From positions 1-22,902 of the IMG/VR virus record IMGVR_UViG_3300021197_000713: a DNA stretch of 22,902 nt; one strand, 5' to 3'. Positions 5,018 through 13,801 of this stretch are shown here, one piece after another (within the stretch, counting starts at the first letter, position 1; every line of letters begins with the position of its first letter). Below the pieces are notes generated by a model, which saw only the letters and a program-made list of their open reading frames with translations, ran no database searches and had not been told where the DNA came from. Both the position numbers and the translations under genes were made by a program. The DNA comes from a virus.

Positions 5018-8000
5018 TTAATATGGTTTTTTTAAATTATCCTCCGGCTTGCAACAATCTATAAACGCATTGTATAACTCTGTTTTTGTGATAGGTGCGA
5101 TATCATTGCCAGTAGCAACATCTGTATACCCACCTTGATTTATTATGTCAGTCCAATGAGACACAAGATAATTGACATCTAAAAATGACGAACTACAGCC
5201 TCCTGACGCACTTGTTGGGCCGCTAGCAACTGAAGTTGCCGCATTGTTATATAAACAATTAAAATCAACACAAGCTTCAAGATGACTTATAAGGTTTGTA
5301 CACGGATCTTCTCCAAGATAAACACAAGATCCATCATCCACGGTTGCTAGTGGGTTAAAATTTGAAGCCGTTACTCCGCTTGGACTAAACTCAACAGTAC
5401 AACCCGGAACTGGCGCTTTTGTGCAACTACCATCATCTAAGGTTGCCAAAGGATTATAATTACTCGCGGTATCATCAGTACAACCCTTCACGTTATCAAC
5501 ACATGAACCATCATTTATAGTAGCTAATGGGTCATAGTTAATTGCTGTAATCGCTGTGCAACCATATACATTATATGTACAAGAACCATCATCTACAGTT
5601 GCTGTAACATCATAATTAAGTGCGGTATCATCAGTACAACCAACCATATCATACGTACAACTTCCATCATCTACGGTAGCTGTTGCGTTATAATTGTTTG
5701 CTGTATCATCTATACAACCTAACCAAATACAAGAACCATCATCAGTATTTACAGTAGCATTGTAGTTAGAAGCAGAAGCATCTATACATCCATAAGTGTA
5801 AGGAATACATGATCCATCACTACATGTTGCGTTAGCATCATAGTTAACTTGAGTGCCGTCACAACAACCAGGAACAGACGTGTCTGCGCCAGATAAATCA
5901 CAGCCCATGCAAGTTGCAAAAGAGCAACTACCATCGTCCACAGTAGCTAAAGGATCGTGATTATTAGCTGTGCTATCAGTGCAACCAGAAACAACAACCG
6001 TGTACGTACAACTACCATCATCTGTATTTGCTAAAACGTTGTAGTTATCAGCCAATGGATCCATACAACCATCTACAACATCTATACAAGAGTCTGGAAC
6101 GTCGTCCGTGTTAACATCTATTAATGGATCACCCGTTAAAGCTATATAGTTAAATGCTGATGGGTCCATGCAGCCCGTAATAACAGGTATACAACCGCCA
6201 TCATCAACATTAGCATTTCCATCGTAATTATATGCCGTATCATCCATACATCCATAAACATAAGGAAGGCATGATCCGTCGTCTATAGTAGCTGATATAT
6301 TAAAATTATACATTGTAGGGTCCATACAGCCAGAAGTACCGGTGAAACAACTTCCGTCATCTACTGTAGCCGCTGGGTTGTAGTTAGTTGTATCTAGAGG
6401 GTCGGTACAACCAGCAATAACACTAACATCACTCTCTGAGTACCCTAAACCTTGCACTGAAAACTCAGAAGTATCTAAGAAATCGCCTTGTCCGGGGTTT
6501 TGATTACCTTTTATCCAGTTAAACCACTTGTTCTCCTTGTCTATAAATTCACTCATAACACCATCTTGAAGATCCGTAAATATACTGTGTACCTTCCAAC
6601 CTAGTTTAGGGTAGTTATCGTAATAATCTTGTCCAATAACAATATTATCTATTTTATAAAGATTACCAGGGCCAGTTGTTTCTTCAGTAATATTAGCTTG
6701 CGTGCCTTCGTAGTTTAGTGTTTTAAACCTTTTAACACTTCCCTGTGCTCCATTAAACATTACCTTAACCATAGAGTAAGAATCTCTACTGTAAAACTGG
6801 TTTCTAGCAGTAGTAAATCTTATTTCAGTATTAACTGATACCCAAACGCCTTGTGCATTAAAGTTGGTTCCAGGAGATGTTAAGCCAACGTTGCACAAGC
6901 CAGCAGTACAAGCCACAGAGGAAACCCTAGTATCAGTAGGTATTCCGTTACCAAAAACGTTCATACCTTCTAGTATGACACCTAAGCCGTCATTAACCTG
7001 TAACACGGTACCTCCATTAATATTTGTATTTGCTAATCTTTTTATATTAATATCCAAGCTATGTTGGTGCGCTTCCGCGGTATTATCACCTAAGTAAGAT
7101 ACTCCAAAAGGATCTAACTTTGTTAGTGAGTTGTATTTGTTTGAAGGGAAAGTATAATAAATGTTTTTGTGACTAACACCACCTTGCTGTATAAAGCTTT
7201 TAAAACTAACCCAACCTCTTACTTTTTCCGCATAACTAACGGTGTAAGCTTTATCGTTACCATCTTGATCTGTTGTTTCTATTGTTAAGTTATATTGGTT
7301 GTCTCTATCATCATGACTACCTATTAAAGATGTTGCGTATCTAAGGTTGTCTCTAAACCAATCTTTCATTCCAGCATCAGATATAGGTGTTAAACCATCT
7401 TTTGATAATCTTAACACAGCTCCTCTGTCTTTATCTGTAAAGTAAACTCTATAAGATTCTGACGCAAATGATTCTGGATTTCTAGACATACCATACTCAC
7501 CACTAAAAGGAAGAGACTGACCTAAAACAGCTTGGTTCGATGTTACGTTGGTATTTCCATCAGCATTAAATAAAGCATCTTTTTTAGCAAGTATTTTAAA
7601 TACTTTGTTTTCGCAGAATGTAACTAAATCTGTGTCCCTAGCGAATAATTTTTGAATACTACCATTTATTGGATTAAGATCTTTTGTTATTGGCTCTGCT
7701 TGTATAAATTGGTTTGTTCTATTAATACCGCTAGTTGAATTATATATACCTGAGAATATTAAACCACTACCTTTTCTTTCCTCCTCGTATTGCTCGGCTA
7801 ATGGCATAGATGCTTTTACACCTTTGTCTATAGTAACAGCATTAAAGTCATCTCTAATTCTGTTAGACTCAACCCCAGTACCAAAAGAATAACAGTTAAA
7901 ATAACCTAAACCGTGTCTCACTCTATGTGTTTTACCATTTGTCGGTCCTGATTCTCCAAGTCTATATATAGCTTGGCCAAGAACCTCTATAACTTGTAGT

Positions 8001-11000
8001 TCCACCCACTCATTATCATGAGCCACACCGTAGTAAGTACCCTCACCACGCCATTCTATTCTTACTGTTTTACCAACAGGTAAATCAGCAAAAGTACCAT
8101 CGTCTAGTTGTACTAGCCTGTCCATGAAGACTAAATCGCCCTTCACGTCACACACCTTCATATCTTGAAAACCATCGACTACAACTAAAGATCCCACTCT
8201 AGCTATCTCTTCACCTCTAGCAGTGTAATCATCCCAATTTGCGCCATAACTGTCAATTTCGTCTGCACCCGTAAAGCCATCAGCACCAACGCTATTAGCG
8301 TCAAATCTGTGTCTTTTTGTTTGCACGGGAAAAGATGGACTAGCAGCGTAATACAAGTCTAAACCTACGTCTTCTTTAGGTTCTGTCTCCCATATAGCTG
8401 GGTTGTTACTTATTTCGTTACTTTTATCGTTACCAACGTATTGAGCAACTATCTCTATAGTAGTTTCGTTTAAAGCTCTTTCGTGTAAACCAATATAAGC
8501 ATTTGGATTATCCGCGTACCACGTTTGCGCACTAAGAGTACTAGCGGTAATTTCTTCAGCGAACTTAGCGTTGTAACCAGCGTCTAAATATTCTGGTTGA
8601 TCATTTTCGGTATCACCCGCATTGTCACTAGCGTTCCAATAGCTATTTAAGTTATAAAAGTTTATATCATCAGGCGTACCACCATCATCAGCAGTTATAC
8701 CGTTATTAAAAGAAGTAAGATACTGTTGTCTACCTCTTTTAACATTTGACTTACCCTCCGCATCTACATGATTTGTTATAGGGTGAAATGAGTTTGGTCC
8801 CTCAGCGCCAATAATCTTGTCTAACACCAAAGTGTATCTAACTCTACGGTTATATGGAGCTCCACCTGACAACTTAGCTCTTTCCTGAGGTGGAGTATGG
8901 TTTCGCATCATGATGTCAGATAAAAAAGCATATCCACCAGCTAGGTGGTTTCCTTTTTCAACACTTCCGTATGGAGGTAACATTCCACCACCTATTCCTC
9001 CTCCACCTTTAACACCGTCAATAGCTACTGGAGGAGTAGATCCATTTATATATGCATCGTAATCCCACCAACCCCAAGACCCCATGGGTGCCTCGTAGTT
9101 CCAAACGTCTTCCGTAGAAACGTTAGTAACTGTGTATATTGTTTGGTCTGGATCTTGTTTAAATCTAAATGTAGCACCTATTTTACTTATTTCCTGCGCA
9201 AAAAGAAGCTCTGTAGCTTGATGTCTACTTGCTAAATAAGTATTGCCCTGTGCTTGTGTACCTTCTCTACCTATACCCCAAAAAGATAGATGTATGTATG
9301 ATTGTTGTCCGTCGTTCCATATACCGTTACCACTACCACCGCTAGCAGCACCAGCTTTATCAAAGAACCATCTATCAGGGTGAAAACGACCTAATGGCCA
9401 TTGATCACTAATATCATCTCTACCTCTCCATAAGTTATACCAATGCTGTCTAAGTTTTGCCATCGTACCTAAAGTAAACACAGGTTGTTTTTGTTGTGGC
9501 CATGTGGCATTAAAGTTGACACCATCAACAACAAAATCTTCTTGATTACCCCACGCTGCAGGTATCATGTACGGATTTGCTGGCGCAACATAACCCGGGT
9601 GTTTTGTGCCAGGACCATTTTCAGGTTTAAATTCATTTCCTTTGACTGTCCACTCAAAAATAGGGTCTCCACAAAGTGCTGAAGTTTGACCATTATCCGA
9701 ACCTTTATCATCACAACCAAGTGTTAAATCTAAAATACCTGGCTTTTCTATTCCAACGTCTATATAATCATAAACCCCAATACCACCTATAGCATCATCA
9801 TAATCATTGAGATCTATACCATAGTTACTAGCGTAATGCCAATCTGTAACAGCAATACTAGGCCAATTACCAGGTGCCGTTTGATAGTCTTCAAAATCGT
9901 TATTACTATCTAGGTACTCTTTGTACTTGTTGTTCCAAAAATTACCATCAGGTCCTGGGGTGTGAAAAACACCATTAGTATCTTCATGTGGGCCGAAAGG
10001 CCATTCTTTACCCGCTAAATTAGGGCCATCTTGAATTGCTCCACTCGAGTCTACATACGTAGCACTCATATTACCTACAGATTTTGAGAACGAACTAACA
10101 AAATAATTTCTTGAAGCTGGACTGTTAGTATCCCAATCTATAAATGGATCAATATATTTACTAAAGTTCCAATCTTGTTTTCCAGGATGCGCAGCCGCTA
10201 TGTACTTTATATCTTTAGTGTGTATTACTTGCCAATCGTCATTAACCTCTGCTTGAGCATCCACGATGTTTACCTCAACATTGGCATCTCTTAGTATTTT
10301 AACAAAAAACCTTCCTTCAAATTTAGAGCTATCTCGCTTTTCAATTGTTCTAGCTTCTATTGACAACCCTCTAGACATTGATAGGTTAAAACTAGGATTG
10401 TTTATATTTGTTGGTTGTATAACTGAATCTGACTCGCAAAACAAAGCGTCTTCACCAAAAGCTCTTTCTAAAGAGATTCTAGCTATTCTAACAGGTAAAC
10501 CCTCTACCTCTTGCTCGTTACCATTATCATCAAAATATGTTTGCGCTGGTGCTCCAATATAACTTATGTTGGCTATTTCATACCAATCTGTGTTATTAAC
10601 GTTTTGAGATACAACACTATTATATGCTGATGGCAAACCGCCTGTTTGTGTTATTCTTATCTGACCACCTGGAGCCTCGGTCAAACCCTTTAATACTGTA
10701 GCGTCGAAATACTCAGCTATGACATCTATATTCATTCTGCTAGGTAGTGGTAGGCCAGATGGATGTAACATACCGGTATCCCAACTACCAACATCACCCC
10801 AACCAGGAGGTGGAAGCATGATAGGTACTGATCCCCAATACTTAGATTGTGTTTTTATAAAATTAGGAGCATTATTATCTATAGCTAAAACCTTGTAAGA
10901 AACATCTAAATCTGTAAATTCGTATGAATCATGTTTCTTTTTTAGTATTAAATTAGTGTCTTCATTTATCTTGTTTCTTTCAGAAGAAGGAAAAGACAAC

Positions 11001-12739
11001 CAAACACCACCATCTTCAGCGTCATACCAACGGTCCATAGCTATGTTGTAGTATTCGTTTGAAGTCTCTTTAACGTAAAAAGTATAAGACTCAGCCCAAT
11101 AAGGAGCTTCGTTTTTAAGTTCTACACTTAATCTATTTTGTAAGCTAGCGAAAGGCTTTTGAATATCAACAGATCCAGATTGAGATGTTAGTATAGGTGT
11201 TTCTCTACCATACTTATCCCTGTACACAACTCCAAGTTGGTATGTTCTTTGTGATTTTAATGATTTTGCTGGAAAACCTAACTCTGTATCATCATCGTTC
11301 CAAGGGTTAAGCGAGGTGATGGAAACGTCAAACTCTGGCTTAATAGACGTCCTATCGTCAGTGATAGGATCTATTTTTTCAATATTGTATTGTTGTAGGT
11401 AGTTCGCGTATATAAGTCTATTAGCCGTTATCTCTTGACCTAAAGCTTTTCTTGGAACATTATCCCAAGGTCTAAGCATTTGGTTGGAAGCAACAACCTT
11501 GTGTATCATTTCTGTTTTTATAGTGTATTTACCGTAGTGACCACCATTAGCAGCGGTATTCCAATAGTTTTCAGAACTACCAAGTTCTGGTGGATCTTCT
11601 TTTTTAAATGATTCCACTGTGTACACGTTAGGTGAGTTGGACTCTTTGTAAAGTATGTCTATTTGAACAACGTCTGGTGGGCAATTTTTTGGCCTCCAAT
11701 TCAAGACCTTCAACAGTCTTAAATTGTTTTGCATACCAAGATTATAGCCTTTTTTCGGTGAGTAATCAAATTCACCAGGTATAAACGCTACTTCTGACCA
11801 TGGTGAGAATACAGAGTATTCACCATCTTCGTATTTATATCTATAACCAAACTTGGGAAATTTAACTCTAAAGATTGGTTCACTTTGTACTAGCTCAACA
11901 GAGTATATATCATTTCCTGATGTTGCTCCTATTGGAAAGTTACCAGCCATACTAACGACTCTAGCAAGTACAAATTTATCAACTCCAGACCCAGCTAAAT
12001 TATAAGCACCATAAGTCGCTTTGTCACCAGGAATAACAGTGTTATTAGGAAATCTATAATCACCATTTGCATCAGCTGGCCCGTGTACACTGTAAGGGCT
12101 CCACTCCGGAGTCACCCAATCTTCACCACCAGAACCATCATCAATCCACCTTGTTTGTTTAGCATTTATTATTTCACACCTACAGGTAGCTGATCGTTTT
12201 TTGCCAAAAATATCAACCCACTCATGTGTTATTGTTAGTTGATCCTGGTTTTTCCAATCTTCACCAGATGACTCTATGTTCATTGGTATAACAATTTTAT
12301 CTCCAGCTACTTTTTGAACTTTACCTTTAGTGTAAAAAATACTTATATCTGCTCCATCAGCAGATGTACCTTTGACGTTATGAAGCAGAGTATTAAACAC
12401 ATTGGTTGACGGATCTTCAACAAAATTAGAAGACTGGTCCATGTAAAGCCCAGAGAAAGTAGCGCTAACCGCTGTACCCTCTGTGACCGTATTAACAGCT
12501 GCTAACTGATCCTCATACTGATACATCTCTAGTGTAAGTGGCATTGTAGGGCCTTTTCTTAGCACCGTCATGTTTTTTTCTAGCAAAAAGTGAGGTCTAC
12601 AAATAACTTCAGTATCACAGAGGTTATTTATTTGATCCCTAGGTTTACCTAACTCGTTTACTTTGTCGGCGTAAGTGTTTGCCGCTGCTGTTAAAGTGTT
12701 AGTAACAGTGTTTACTATGTTATTTAATATACTTTGCAT
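5018..12739 (-). CDS. Giant tail/adsorption structural protein with C-terminal Cys-repeat tract (2573 aa)
   Basis: At 2573 aa this is about a third of the window. Residues 1-50 form a helical leader. LLEKNMTVLRKGPTMPLTLE begins a long beta-rich body. Recognisable phrases are YRYKYEDGEYSVFSPWSE (about 300), LGVVYRDKYGRETPILT (about 500), a Trp/Gly/Asp-rich stretch (about 900-1400) with a glycine run, KLFARDTDLVTFCENKVFKI (about 1690), RGWVSFKSF (about 1840) and FIDKENKWFNWIKG (about 2065). Residues 2110-2472 carry about 13 GC.D..A.NYN..AT.DDGSC repeats, then a 100-residue tail with six cysteines. There is no tape-measure-like helix and no signal peptide. Such giant beta proteins in short-tailed phages usually belong to the tail stem or muzzle. 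The start is supported by AGAGGA 6 bases upstream. It reads in the same frame as the preceding 348-aa gene, separated by three stops. Confidence 0.7.
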   Translation of the reverse strand: MQSILNNIVNTVTNTLTAAANTYADKVNELGKPRDQINNLCDTEVICRPHFLLEKNMTVLRKGPTMPLTLEMYQYEDQLAAVNTVTEGTAVSATFSGLYMDQSSNFVEDPSTNVFNTLLHNVKGTSADGADISIFYTKGKVQKVAGDKIVIPMNIESSGEDWKNQDQLTITHEWVDIFGKKRSATCRCEIINAKQTRWIDDGSGGEDWVTPEWSPYSVHGPADANGDYRFPNNTVIPGDKATYGAYNLAGSGVDKFVLARVVSMAGNFPIGATSGNDIYSVELVQSEPIFRVKFPKFGYRYKYEDGEYSVFSPWSEVAFIPGEFDYSPKKGYNLGMQNNLRLLKVLNWRPKNCPPDVVQIDILYKESNSPNVYTVESFKKEDPPELGSSENYWNTAANGGHYGKYTIKTEMIHKVVASNQMLRPWDNVPRKALGQEITANRLIYANYLQQYNIEKIDPITDDRTSIKPEFDVSITSLNPWNDDDTELGFPAKSLKSQRTYQLGVVYRDKYGRETPILTSQSGSVDIQKPFASLQNRLSVELKNEAPYWAESYTFYVKETSNEYYNIAMDRWYDAEDGGVWLSFPSSERNKINEDTNLILKKKHDSYEFTDLDVSYKVLAIDNNAPNFIKTQSKYWGSVPIMLPPPGWGDVGSWDTGMLHPSGLPLPSRMNIDVIAEYFDATVLKGLTEAPGGQIRITQTGGLPSAYNSVVSQNVNNTDWYEIANISYIGAPAQTYFDDNGNEQEVEGLPVRIARISLERAFGEDALFCESDSVIQPTNINNPSFNLSMSRGLSIEARTIEKRDSSKFEGRFFVKILRDANVEVNIVDAQAEVNDDWQVIHTKDIKYIAAAHPGKQDWNFSKYIDPFIDWDTNSPASRNYFVSSFSKSVGNMSATYVDSSGAIQDGPNLAGKEWPFGPHEDTNGVFHTPGPDGNFWNNKYKEYLDSNNDFEDYQTAPGNWPSIAVTDWHYASNYGIDLNDYDDAIGGIGVYDYIDVGIEKPGILDLTLGCDDKGSDNGQTSALCGDPIFEWTVKGNEFKPENGPGTKHPGYVAPANPYMIPAAWGNQEDFVVDGVNFNATWPQQKQPVFTLGTMAKLRQHWYNLWRGRDDISDQWPLGRFHPDRWFFDKAGAASGGSGNGIWNDGQQSYIHLSFWGIGREGTQAQGNTYLASRHQATELLFAQEISKIGATFRFKQDPDQTIYTVTNVSTEDVWNYEAPMGSWGWWDYDAYINGSTPPVAIDGVKGGGGIGGGMLPPYGSVEKGNHLAGGYAFLSDIMMRNHTPPQERAKLSGGAPYNRRVRYTLVLDKIIGAEGPNSFHPITNHVDAEGKSNVKRGRQQYLTSFNNGITADDGGTPDDINFYNLNSYWNASDNAGDTENDQPEYLDAGYNAKFAEEITASTLSAQTWYADNPNAYIGLHERALNETTIEIVAQYVGNDKSNEISNNPAIWETEPKEDVGLDLYYAASPSFPVQTKRHRFDANSVGADGFTGADEIDSYGANWDDYTARGEEIARVGSLVVVDGFQDMKVCDVKGDLVFMDRLVQLDDGTFADLPVGKTVRIEWRGEGTYYGVAHDNEWVELQVIEVLGQAIYRLGESGPTNGKTHRVRHGLGYFNCYSFGTGVESNRIRDDFNAVTIDKGVKASMPLAEQYEEERKGSGLIFSGIYNSTSGINRTNQFIQAEPITKDLNPINGSIQKLFARDTDLVTFCENKVFKILAKKDALFNADGNTNVTSNQAVLGQSLPFSGEYGMSRNPESFASESYRVYFTDKDRGAVLRLSKDGLTPISDAGMKDWFRDNLRYATSLIGSHDDRDNQYNLTIETTDQDGNDKAYTVSYAEKVRGWVSFKSFIQQGGVSHKNIYYTFPSNKYNSLTKLDPFGVSYLGDNTAEAHQHSLDINIKRLANTNINGGTVLQVNDGLGVILEGMNVFGNGIPTDTRVSSVACTAGLCNVGLTSPGTNFNAQGVWVSVNTEIRFTTARNQFYSRDSYSMVKVMFNGAQGSVKRFKTLNYEGTQANITEETTGPGNLYKIDNIVIGQDYYDNYPKLGWKVHSIFTDLQDGVMSEFIDKENKWFNWIKGNQNPGQGDFLDTSEFSVQGLGYSESDVSVIAGCTDPLDTTNYNPAATVDDGSCFTGTSGCMDPTMYNFNISATIDDGSCLPYVYGCMDDTAYNYDGNANVDDGGCIPVITGCMDPSAFNYIALTGDPLIDVNTDDVPDSCIDVVDGCMDPLADNYNVLANTDDGSCTYTVVVSGCTDSTANNHDPLATVDDGSCSFATCMGCDLSGADTSVPGCCDGTQVNYDANATCSDGSCIPYTYGCIDASASNYNATVNTDDGSCIWLGCIDDTANNYNATATVDDGSCTYDMVGCTDDTALNYDVTATVDDGSCTYNVYGCTAITAINYDPLATINDGSCVDNVKGCTDDTASNYNPLATLDDGSCTKAPVPGCTVEFSPSGVTASNFNPLATVDDGSCVYLGEDPCTNLISHLEACVDFNCLYNNAATSVASGPTSASGGCSSSFLDVNYLVSHWTDIINQGGYTDVATGNDIAPITKTELYNAFIDCCKPEDNLKKPY
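5324..6412 (-). repeat. About 13 tandem GC.D...DDGSC coding repeats
   Basis: This encodes residues 2110-2472 of the giant protein. Units such as GCTDDTALNYDVTATVDDGSC recur every 20-30 residues. Most units keep two cysteines, the NYN/NYD core and DDGSC. Three are irregular: one has a longer insert ending in DVPDSC, one is preceded by CMGCDLSGADTSVPG and begins CCDGTQ, and one carries VEFSPSG. The DDGSC codons differ between units (GGA TCT TGT, GGT AGT TGC, GGA AGT TGT), so the repeats are old and diverged at DNA level but held at protein level. I recall similar repeats in secreted proteins of marine Bacteroidota. Paired cysteines suggest disulphides once outside the cell; the Asp/Asn cores could bind calcium, by inference. 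Confidence 0.9.
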
Positions 12740-12745
12740 TAGTTA

Positions 12746-12751
12746 TCCTCT
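12746..12751 (-). promoter_or_regulatory. Shine-Dalgarno-like site of the giant tail gene
   Basis: AGAGGA lies 6 bases before the ATG of the 2573-aa gene, inside the 15-base gap after the 348-aa stop. It supports that start. It stands out because the other starts in the window have only AT-rich leaders and no purine box. Confidence 0.6.
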
Positions 12752-12754
12752 TTA

Positions 12755-13801
12755 TTATTTTGGATCATCACTTGAGTAGTTGTCGGCTTGAAATTCTTCC
12801 AGGTTAAAACTAGATGTTTCTGATTCTTCGTATAATGATGGTTCTTCTTCTGGTGGCTCAACAATTAAAGTATCATCTATAATAGTATCTTGTTTATAAG
12901 ACCTATCGCCACCAAGTATGTCTTCAGTAATACAATCGTATCTAACATCTTCTTTAACAACTAATACAGTGTGTTGATTAAAGTCATCTATTTTTGGTAT
13001 AGGAAAACCAGTATATCTACCTATTAAACCAGTTTTTGTTGACCACAAAGCAGTATTACTACCCATTTTAGCTCTTTCAATATCTATTTTTTTAGGTTCA
13101 GAGTAATTGTCTGTCCAAAACAACATACCATCAATTATATTTAAACCTGTTATATTTCTATCTGGATCAAAATTAAGACTTCTATCACCTTCAAATACAA
13201 TATCCCCACTTCCAGCCCAAAGTTTATCTAACCAGATTTCACCAGTTGCATAGTTTATATCCTCAATAACAGCCCCATAAGAGTCTTTCACTCTCATACC
13301 CCATCTTAATTGATTTGTATTTTTATCAACTTTAATCCAAGTTTTATTACCAACATCATTAGTGCTTGTAACATTAGCCTGCACTTTAAATATATCAACA
13401 ACCACAGCATTTTCTTTTTCTTGCCACGGAGTATCAATAGATTTTGTTGTGTCATACTCTACTATTCTATCCATCCAAACACCATTGCTAGGACTAGGTG
13501 TATGAACGAATCTATAAAGCATGTCTGATTGTGGGTCTACTATTTGTGTTATGTGGAAGTTTTCTTGATCATACTCAGAGTTTACTAAACCGGTTAGCGT
13601 AGTGTTTGTTTGTGTTCTACCTTTAATTGCTTGGGTTACACATATATTACCTAGTATGTTTTGAGCAGCGCCTACGTCTGAATCTTCTGATGTTGATACG
13701 GATATATTTAAGGCCTCTCTATATTGACCGTTAGGAACGATTCTTTCGTCCTTATCCTTCTCCATCTTACCACCTTGAAAAGTGTGTTTTAATTCTGGCA
13801 T
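12755..13801 (-). CDS. N-terminal partner of the giant tail protein (348 aa)
   Basis: The 348-aa protein begins MPELKHTFQGGKMEKDKDER, then VPNGQYREALNISVSTSEDS and NILGNICVTQAIKG. This layout is one I associate with the start of very large virion proteins in marine phages. Beta-propeller-like strands follow (LYRFVHTPSP, MDRIVEYD, LRWGMRVKD, INYATGEIWLDKLWAG), ending in GLNIIDGMLFWTDNYSEPKK. The last 60 residues are acidic and disordered (VEPPEEEPSLYEESE). It ends 15 bases before the 2573-aa gene in the same frame, and the two may represent one ancestral coding sequence split in two. It starts 3 bases after the 313-aa gene. The role is probably structural, in the tail or neck, and the two products probably sit together in the virion. 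This is inferred. Confidence 0.6.
   Translation of the reverse strand: MPELKHTFQGGKMEKDKDERIVPNGQYREALNISVSTSEDSDVGAAQNILGNICVTQAIKGRTQTNTTLTGLVNSEYDQENFHITQIVDPQSDMLYRFVHTPSPSNGVWMDRIVEYDTTKSIDTPWQEKENAVVVDIFKVQANVTSTNDVGNKTWIKVDKNTNQLRWGMRVKDSYGAVIEDINYATGEIWLDKLWAGSGDIVFEGDRSLNFDPDRNITGLNIIDGMLFWTDNYSEPKKIDIERAKMGSNTALWSTKTGLIGRYTGFPIPKIDDFNQHTVLVVKEDVRYDCITEDILGGDRSYKQDTIIDDTLIVEPPEEEPSLYEESETSSFNLEEFQADNYSSDDPK

Follow-up and report, generated by a model that had tools for sequence, protein, structure and literature searches.

The muzzle locus and its genes

The DNA analysed here (the window) is a whole IMG/VR record of 22.9 kb. Its genes follow the order terminase, portal, scaffold-like gene, MCP, an intervening gene, two ring proteins, muzzle and further structural or cargo-like genes. 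This order is common to the related contigs L002-L009 (relatives are designated by L numbers) and to Cellulophaga phage phi40:1, and the dense syntenic virion genes rule out host contamination of the window. The putative hosts are judged from cultured relatives (Cellulophaga, Maribacter, Tenacibaculum, Flavobacterium).

A first-pass annotation, made from the sequence alone, had reported thirteen repeats on a phage tail protein. The array is found exactly at the reported place, inside one uninterrupted ORF (Table 1). From homology and synteny, this ORF appears to be the C-terminal chain of a Crassvirales muzzle (nozzle) protein, which is split in two in this genus. The window chains stay below the cut-off of 27 bits with the Pfam muzzle models (PF25731 and PF25729), at 22.4 and 11.8, and several relatives pass the cut-offs, namely L008 (44.0 and 30.6), L067 (52.0) and phi40:1 (67.9 for MUZ_C). 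Together with the phrog_14478 match and the conserved synteny, these relatives bear out the assignment to a tail protein. The location on a virion protein is likewise upheld, since the homologue of the array-bearing chain in phi40:1, gp097, is annotated as a structural protein from MS/MS proteomics.

The muzzle is divided into chains of 348 and 2573 aa in the window and is also split in L002 and L003, while L004, L005 and L009 encode a single chain. The split sites vary by lineage. One lies near residue 310-350 and is that of the window (12739-12801), L002 and L003; the other immediately precedes the last part and MUZ_C, in L075 (~7633-7646) and L118 (~7696-7709). Positions 1-2442 of the window hold an 814-aa ORF with a sub-threshold match to the Peptidase_S74 chaperone in mid-protein (aa 328-371), after which over 400 residues remain. 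In L004-L009, the first ~230 residues of this protein correspond to a shorter ORF of its own.

Table 1. Muzzle chains, repeat units and terminal domain in the window.
Feature	Position	Strand	Remarks
Muzzle N-terminal chain, 348 aa	12755..13801	minus	PF25731 crAss_MUZ E 4e-5, below gathering score; phrog_14478 8e-20; same split in L002, L003
Muzzle C-terminal chain, 2573 aa, crassvirus muzzle homologue	5018..12739	minus	phrog_14478 virion structural protein E 1.2e-113; synteny and homology with phi40:1 gp097 and L002-L009
MUZ_C (crassvirus muzzle C-terminal domain), directly before array	6518..6805	minus	weak PF25729 match, aa 1979-2074
Two-cysteine unit array, n=13	5324-6412	minus	aa 2110-2472 of the 2573-aa ORF
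Unit 1	6332..6412	minus	GCTDPLDTTNYNPAATVDDGSC
Unit 2	6254..6331	minus	
Unit 3	6176..6253	minus	DDGGC variant
Unit 4	6071..6175	minus	irregular, with insertion
Unit 5	5987..6070	minus	
Unit 6	5906..5986	minus	
Unit 7	5792..5905	minus	irregular, insertion and extra cysteines
Unit 8	5720..5791	minus	
Unit 9	5642..5719	minus	AlphaFold2 of units 9-12
Unit 10	5564..5641	minus	AlphaFold2 of units 9-12
Unit 11	5486..5563	minus	AlphaFold2 of units 9-12
Unit 12	5405..5485	minus	AlphaFold2 of units 9-12
Unit 13	5324..5404	minus	with insertion
Terminal domain, 98 aa, private to the window phage	5018..5314	minus	putative tip

Composition of the array

The units follow the pattern GC-x-D-xx-A-x-N-Y-N-xx-A-xx-D-D-G-S-C, after which comes a joint of ~5 residues. 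Ten or eleven of the 13 are regular, and the insertions fall in units 4, 7 and 13. The motif is matched 11 times, against a mean of 0.003 and a maximum of 1 in 20,000 shuffles of the same residues. Aspartate and glutamate together number 56 in the array and lysine and arginine 2. The array is cysteine-rich, as had been claimed, but the proposed count of about 26 is too low: the stretch contains 30 cysteines, because the irregular units 6-7 contribute four more. The whole protein has 49, with 13 within the first 2105 residues.

The units had also been said to differ in codons while keeping the protein motif under selection. Where motif residues are conserved, units share the same codon with a frequency of 0.507, and the value expected from the codon usage of the gene is also 0.507. 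The synonymous sites are thus randomised while the motif is kept intact, in agreement with both claims.

Fold and cysteines of the unit

Units 9-12 were predicted with AlphaFold2 from a gapless four-unit alignment with 31 further rows. The mean pLDDT of 93.4 and the pTM of 0.49 indicate a good prediction for each single unit but not for the orientation of the units to one another; at this pTM, a rigid rod, a flexible string and a collapsed cluster are indistinguishable. The prediction for MUZ_C plus the first unit is unreliable, at a pLDDT of 52.5.

The best PDB match of the unit is perforin-2/MPEG1, both in a profile search of PDB sequences (E 0.0058) and in Foldseek, in which 24 columns align with an rmsd of 0.6 Å (E 2.4). 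Perforin-2/MPEG1 is the sole structural relative found for the unit in the PDB; VIA-align gives no match with a Z of 2 or more. The matching piece is a folded linker, described as "truncated EGF-like", that joins the MACPF domain to the P2/MABP domain (PMC6989145, PMC7593815); in it, a 21-residue pattern has a cysteine spacing identical to that of the unit (PDB 6u23, 6sb3) and the same local fold. For one short unit with modest E-values, the likeness, be it by common descent or by convergence, appears convincing because of this identical spacing and the low rmsd. The perforin-2 unit differs from the array in that it occurs once, joining two domains of a mammalian pore-forming protein, and is not repeated in tandem.

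The unit is a self-contained two-cysteine module of ~21 residues plus a 5-residue joint. The virion proteins of the cyanophages L062 and L063 carry a single unit and no other cysteines; if an intramolecular disulfide forms there, the pair must serve itself. One internal Cys2-Cys21 disulfide probably closes each unit. A canonical EGF-like domain (six cysteines, three disulfides) was rejected, given two cysteines per unit and no Pfam EGF match. The repeats have no Pfam, NCBIfam or PHROG match, and a literature search with the motif string gave nothing relevant.

The array in related phages

Relatives were scored among the 80 best muzzle-core matches out of at least 576, plus the earlier loci; this set is not a random sample, and 75 relatives are scorable. 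Units were counted by a regular expression that misses degenerate units. On this count, 26 of the 75 carry two or more units, either at the C-terminal end of the muzzle or in the gene after it, three carry one and 46 none, and array presence changes at least 12 times across the tree of relatives. Only 25 of the 678 ORFs of at least 150 codons in the relatives' contigs contain two or more units, and none of the reversed proteins does, so the units are restricted to these places. The array as a module needed for muzzle assembly was rejected, as about two thirds of the scorable relatives are without it.

The comparison among close relatives shows an array shared with L003 and a unit number that varies elsewhere. 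L003, whose MCP is 91% identical to that of the window, has the same layout, and its C-terminal part is ~51% identical in the alignment. Despite the similarity of the MCP, the domains after the array are unrelated and unalignable. An irregular unit at position 4 is common to the window, L003 and L064. An assembly chimera with host DNA, which the first-pass annotation had named as a possible refutation, is ruled out because L003, L064 and others show the same layout. In L007 and L008, the array lies on a separate gene that begins 7 bases after the muzzle. The first ~160 residues are well conserved between these two proteins, L008 has visibly more units than L007, and the post-array region is ~32% identical, with a conserved extreme C-terminus. 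The array is inherited, with changes in unit number, while the domain that follows it is non-homologous even between close relatives. The terminal domain of the window has no relative among the viral contigs and resembles neither the terminal region of L003 nor that of other relatives.

Different cysteine-rich repeats, of the form YDCxxGxCV...GTGxYxTYxxCxxxC, occupy the same C-terminal place in L004 (9128-17794, residues ~1986-2889) and in L131, which marks the site itself as a hotspot for appendages. In L003 (9038-10183), one GC..DDGSC unit lies at the C-terminus of the N-terminal muzzle chain; none is present there in the window or in L002.

Occurrence of the module in other proteins

The repeats had been likened to secreted proteins of Bacteroidota, and this likeness holds. 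Flavobacteriales and their phages have T9SS-sorted proteins with arrays of ~5 to 12 units of the same type, and profile matches number 139 and 126 in two marine Flavobacteriales MAGs, with overlapping windows counted apart. T9SS-sorted repeat proteins have a signal peptide and a sorting domain, whereas the window protein is without both: NCBIfam gives no match to the sorting domain (TIGR04183 / TIGR04131) in window 5018-6700, and L012, L029 and L048 do match. An identity of the window protein as T9SS cargo is thereby ruled out.

The same unit is found in virion structural proteins of Kyanoviridae (T4-like cyanophages), with one or two units in S-CAM3 gp232, S-H9-2 gp134, ACG-2014j gp030 and S-RIM44 gp230, and three in AG-345-P14. 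These cyanophage proteins have 1-3 units beside Ig-like-looking repeats and are encoded near short-tail-fibre and collar genes. Unlike the window protein, they carry the unit in their first part, followed by the Ig-like-looking repeats, and have no long array. A BLAST of the array against phages reaches AG-345-P14 only, and the cyanophages are reached with the consensus unit as query; the array has no match in plasmids. An archaeal MAG protein also carries the module. Matches in BFVD comprise A0A7S9SUA2 of the unclassified Virus NIOZ-UU157, which is annotated as "Crassvirus muzzle protein C-terminal domain-containing" and has matching repeats, an uncultured-virus sorting-domain protein, cyanophage proteins and, more weakly, giant-virus MACPF proteins.

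The module thus stands between or beside other domains in unrelated proteins, which fits a generic linker or spacer. As far as these searches reach, it is a general module of marine microbes and not the signature of one host surface, and it is apparently an extracellular linker.

A probable spacer arm with an exchangeable tip

The muzzle C-terminal appendage is probably a spacer arm of 13 folded linker modules that ends in an exchangeable, phage-specific terminal domain. This reading builds on the array itself, its virion-protein context, its shared ancestry in the genus, the turnover of unit number and terminal domain, and the presence of the same unit in the solved perforin-2. The linker role of one unit is suggested by its best PDB match being a folded interdomain linker. 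The exchangeable tip is suggested by the unalignable terminal regions of the window and L003 and by the divergence after the array between L007 and L008, whose N-terminal domains are conserved. The arm would project from the particle and hold the terminal domain, which probably makes the contact with the host, at a distance from the conserved body of the muzzle. The reach of the arm would be tuned as units are gained and lost. The module belongs to the repertoire of the large, often secreted proteins of marine Flavobacteriales, and marine phage virion proteins have taken it up repeatedly. On the other hand, L069, L071 and L112 have only a low-complexity tail after the array, with no obvious binding tip, which speaks against a spacer with a tip.

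In crAss001, the muzzle (gp44) is hexameric, lies at the tail tip and has a gate loop, and its crass domain is thought to contact the cell. If the window muzzle is hexameric as well, six arms would be present. The repeats had been placed at the distal end, which is correct for the polypeptide, where they are C-terminal. For the virion this position is not to be assumed: the C-terminal domain of the T7 nozzle is the proximal platform, and the arm may accordingly emerge laterally from the muzzle and not at its tip.

The units themselves could bind the host, as an avidity array of weak modules for a Bacteroidota surface polymer or for the host's own copies of the module. Such a role, which is unlikely, would be in line with the many module copies in marine Flavobacteriales MAGs, the T9SS-sorted copies encoded by related viral contigs and the strongly acidic array. 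However, the presence of the unit in Synechococcus phages (1-3 units), in an archaeal MAG protein and once in the perforin-2 interdomain linker does not tie it to one host surface, and the earlier proposal of mimicry or binding of a Bacteroidota surface protein is not sustained in that form. Moreover, the part that varies in the relatives is the post-array region, not the unit motif.

The 13 conserved cysteine pairs also bring up a redox-matured clamp, in which cysteines reduced in the cell are oxidised after lysis and stiffen the appendage or cross-link muzzle subunits. Disulfides stabilise the crAss001 tail (PMC10172136) and T7 gp11, which lends this function some ground. It is nevertheless improbable, since the self-contained pair of the one-unit proteins argues against inter-subunit links as the main role and the many relatives without an array indicate that muzzle assembly does not need it. 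Oxidation of the array cysteines outside the cell, only after lysis, is plausible in itself and would not be unprecedented, given the disulfides present in the crAss001 tail.

The Asp/Asn-rich DDGS cores and the high net negative charge would suit a calcium-dependent repeat rod, thrombospondin-3-like or RTX-like, made rigid by seawater calcium. This is very improbable: the window proteins have no Pfam match to thrombospondin type 3, RTX, EF-hand or dockerin up to E 1, and the perforin-2 structure papers do not mention calcium. The calcium binding earlier suggested for these cores finds no calcium-binding family match and is not retained. A passive passenger, acquired from the DNA of a host through recombination and left to drift with no role in the virion, would explain the patchy distribution with its changes on the tree and is scarcely credible in view of the randomised synonymous sites with an intact motif, the irregular fourth unit shared with L003 and L064, and the recurrence of the array at the same site in other lineages.

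With the spacer arm as the preferred reading, a wider scenario can be drawn, which as a whole is rather unlikely. Marine crass-like phages would bear muzzle arms of linker modules from the host repertoire, oxidised only after release into seawater. The number of units would set the reach, and a swap of the tip among close relatives would bring a change of receptor. T9SS-exported proteins made of these modules would be encoded by the same phage communities as well, so that one module economy would be shared by the surfaces of phage and host.

Comparison with known systems

The closest precedent for the window array is the BACON tandem array of crAssphage, for which a modular spacer with a swappable tip has likewise been proposed. 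There, tail-region proteins took up and multiplied a linker domain of Bacteroidetes surface proteins, and the C-terminus is poorly conserved (de Jonge et al. 2019, PMC6949934). Both cases have a tandem linker module of Bacteroidetes surface proteins in a Crassvirales tail-region protein, with recurrent acquisition. BACON is an Ig-like beta-sandwich, whereas the unit described here has ~26 residues and two cysteines, and BACON (PF13004) has no Pfam match in the window. Furthermore, the window array differs from the BACON case in being fused to the muzzle itself and in belonging to a marine lineage.

A small module that has neither a name nor a Pfam or NCBIfam model is shared by proteins of marine Flavobacteriales, several unrelated virion proteins of marine phages and a mammalian perforin-2 linker, and the last of these supplies a solved structural reference for it. 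The muzzle C-terminus is a site of appendage exchange in marine Crassvirales. For a group of phages known mostly through metagenomes alone, this suggests where determinants of host range may be sought.

The units of the T9SS-sorted proteins are the same and are also arranged in arrays. In L040, a T9SS-sorted signal-peptide protein with ~12 GC..DDGSC units (9254-11734) is followed by a 344-aa signal-peptide, outer-membrane-barrel-like protein (11731-12765). An M15 endolysin and a 3TM holin are encoded nearby, and this two-gene phage cassette has homologues in L015, L017, L018, L021-L035, L037-L039, L042 and L050, about 25 viral contigs. Large proteins with degenerate units are encoded in L016 (839-5179), L040 (2386-7083) and L044 (1517-11893). 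Those of L016 and L040 have no PHROG match, and all three have in common a C-terminal helical-looking domain, ..LxTGxxxCxxxxxWKLxLxxYLLxxKGLDCxYNC..
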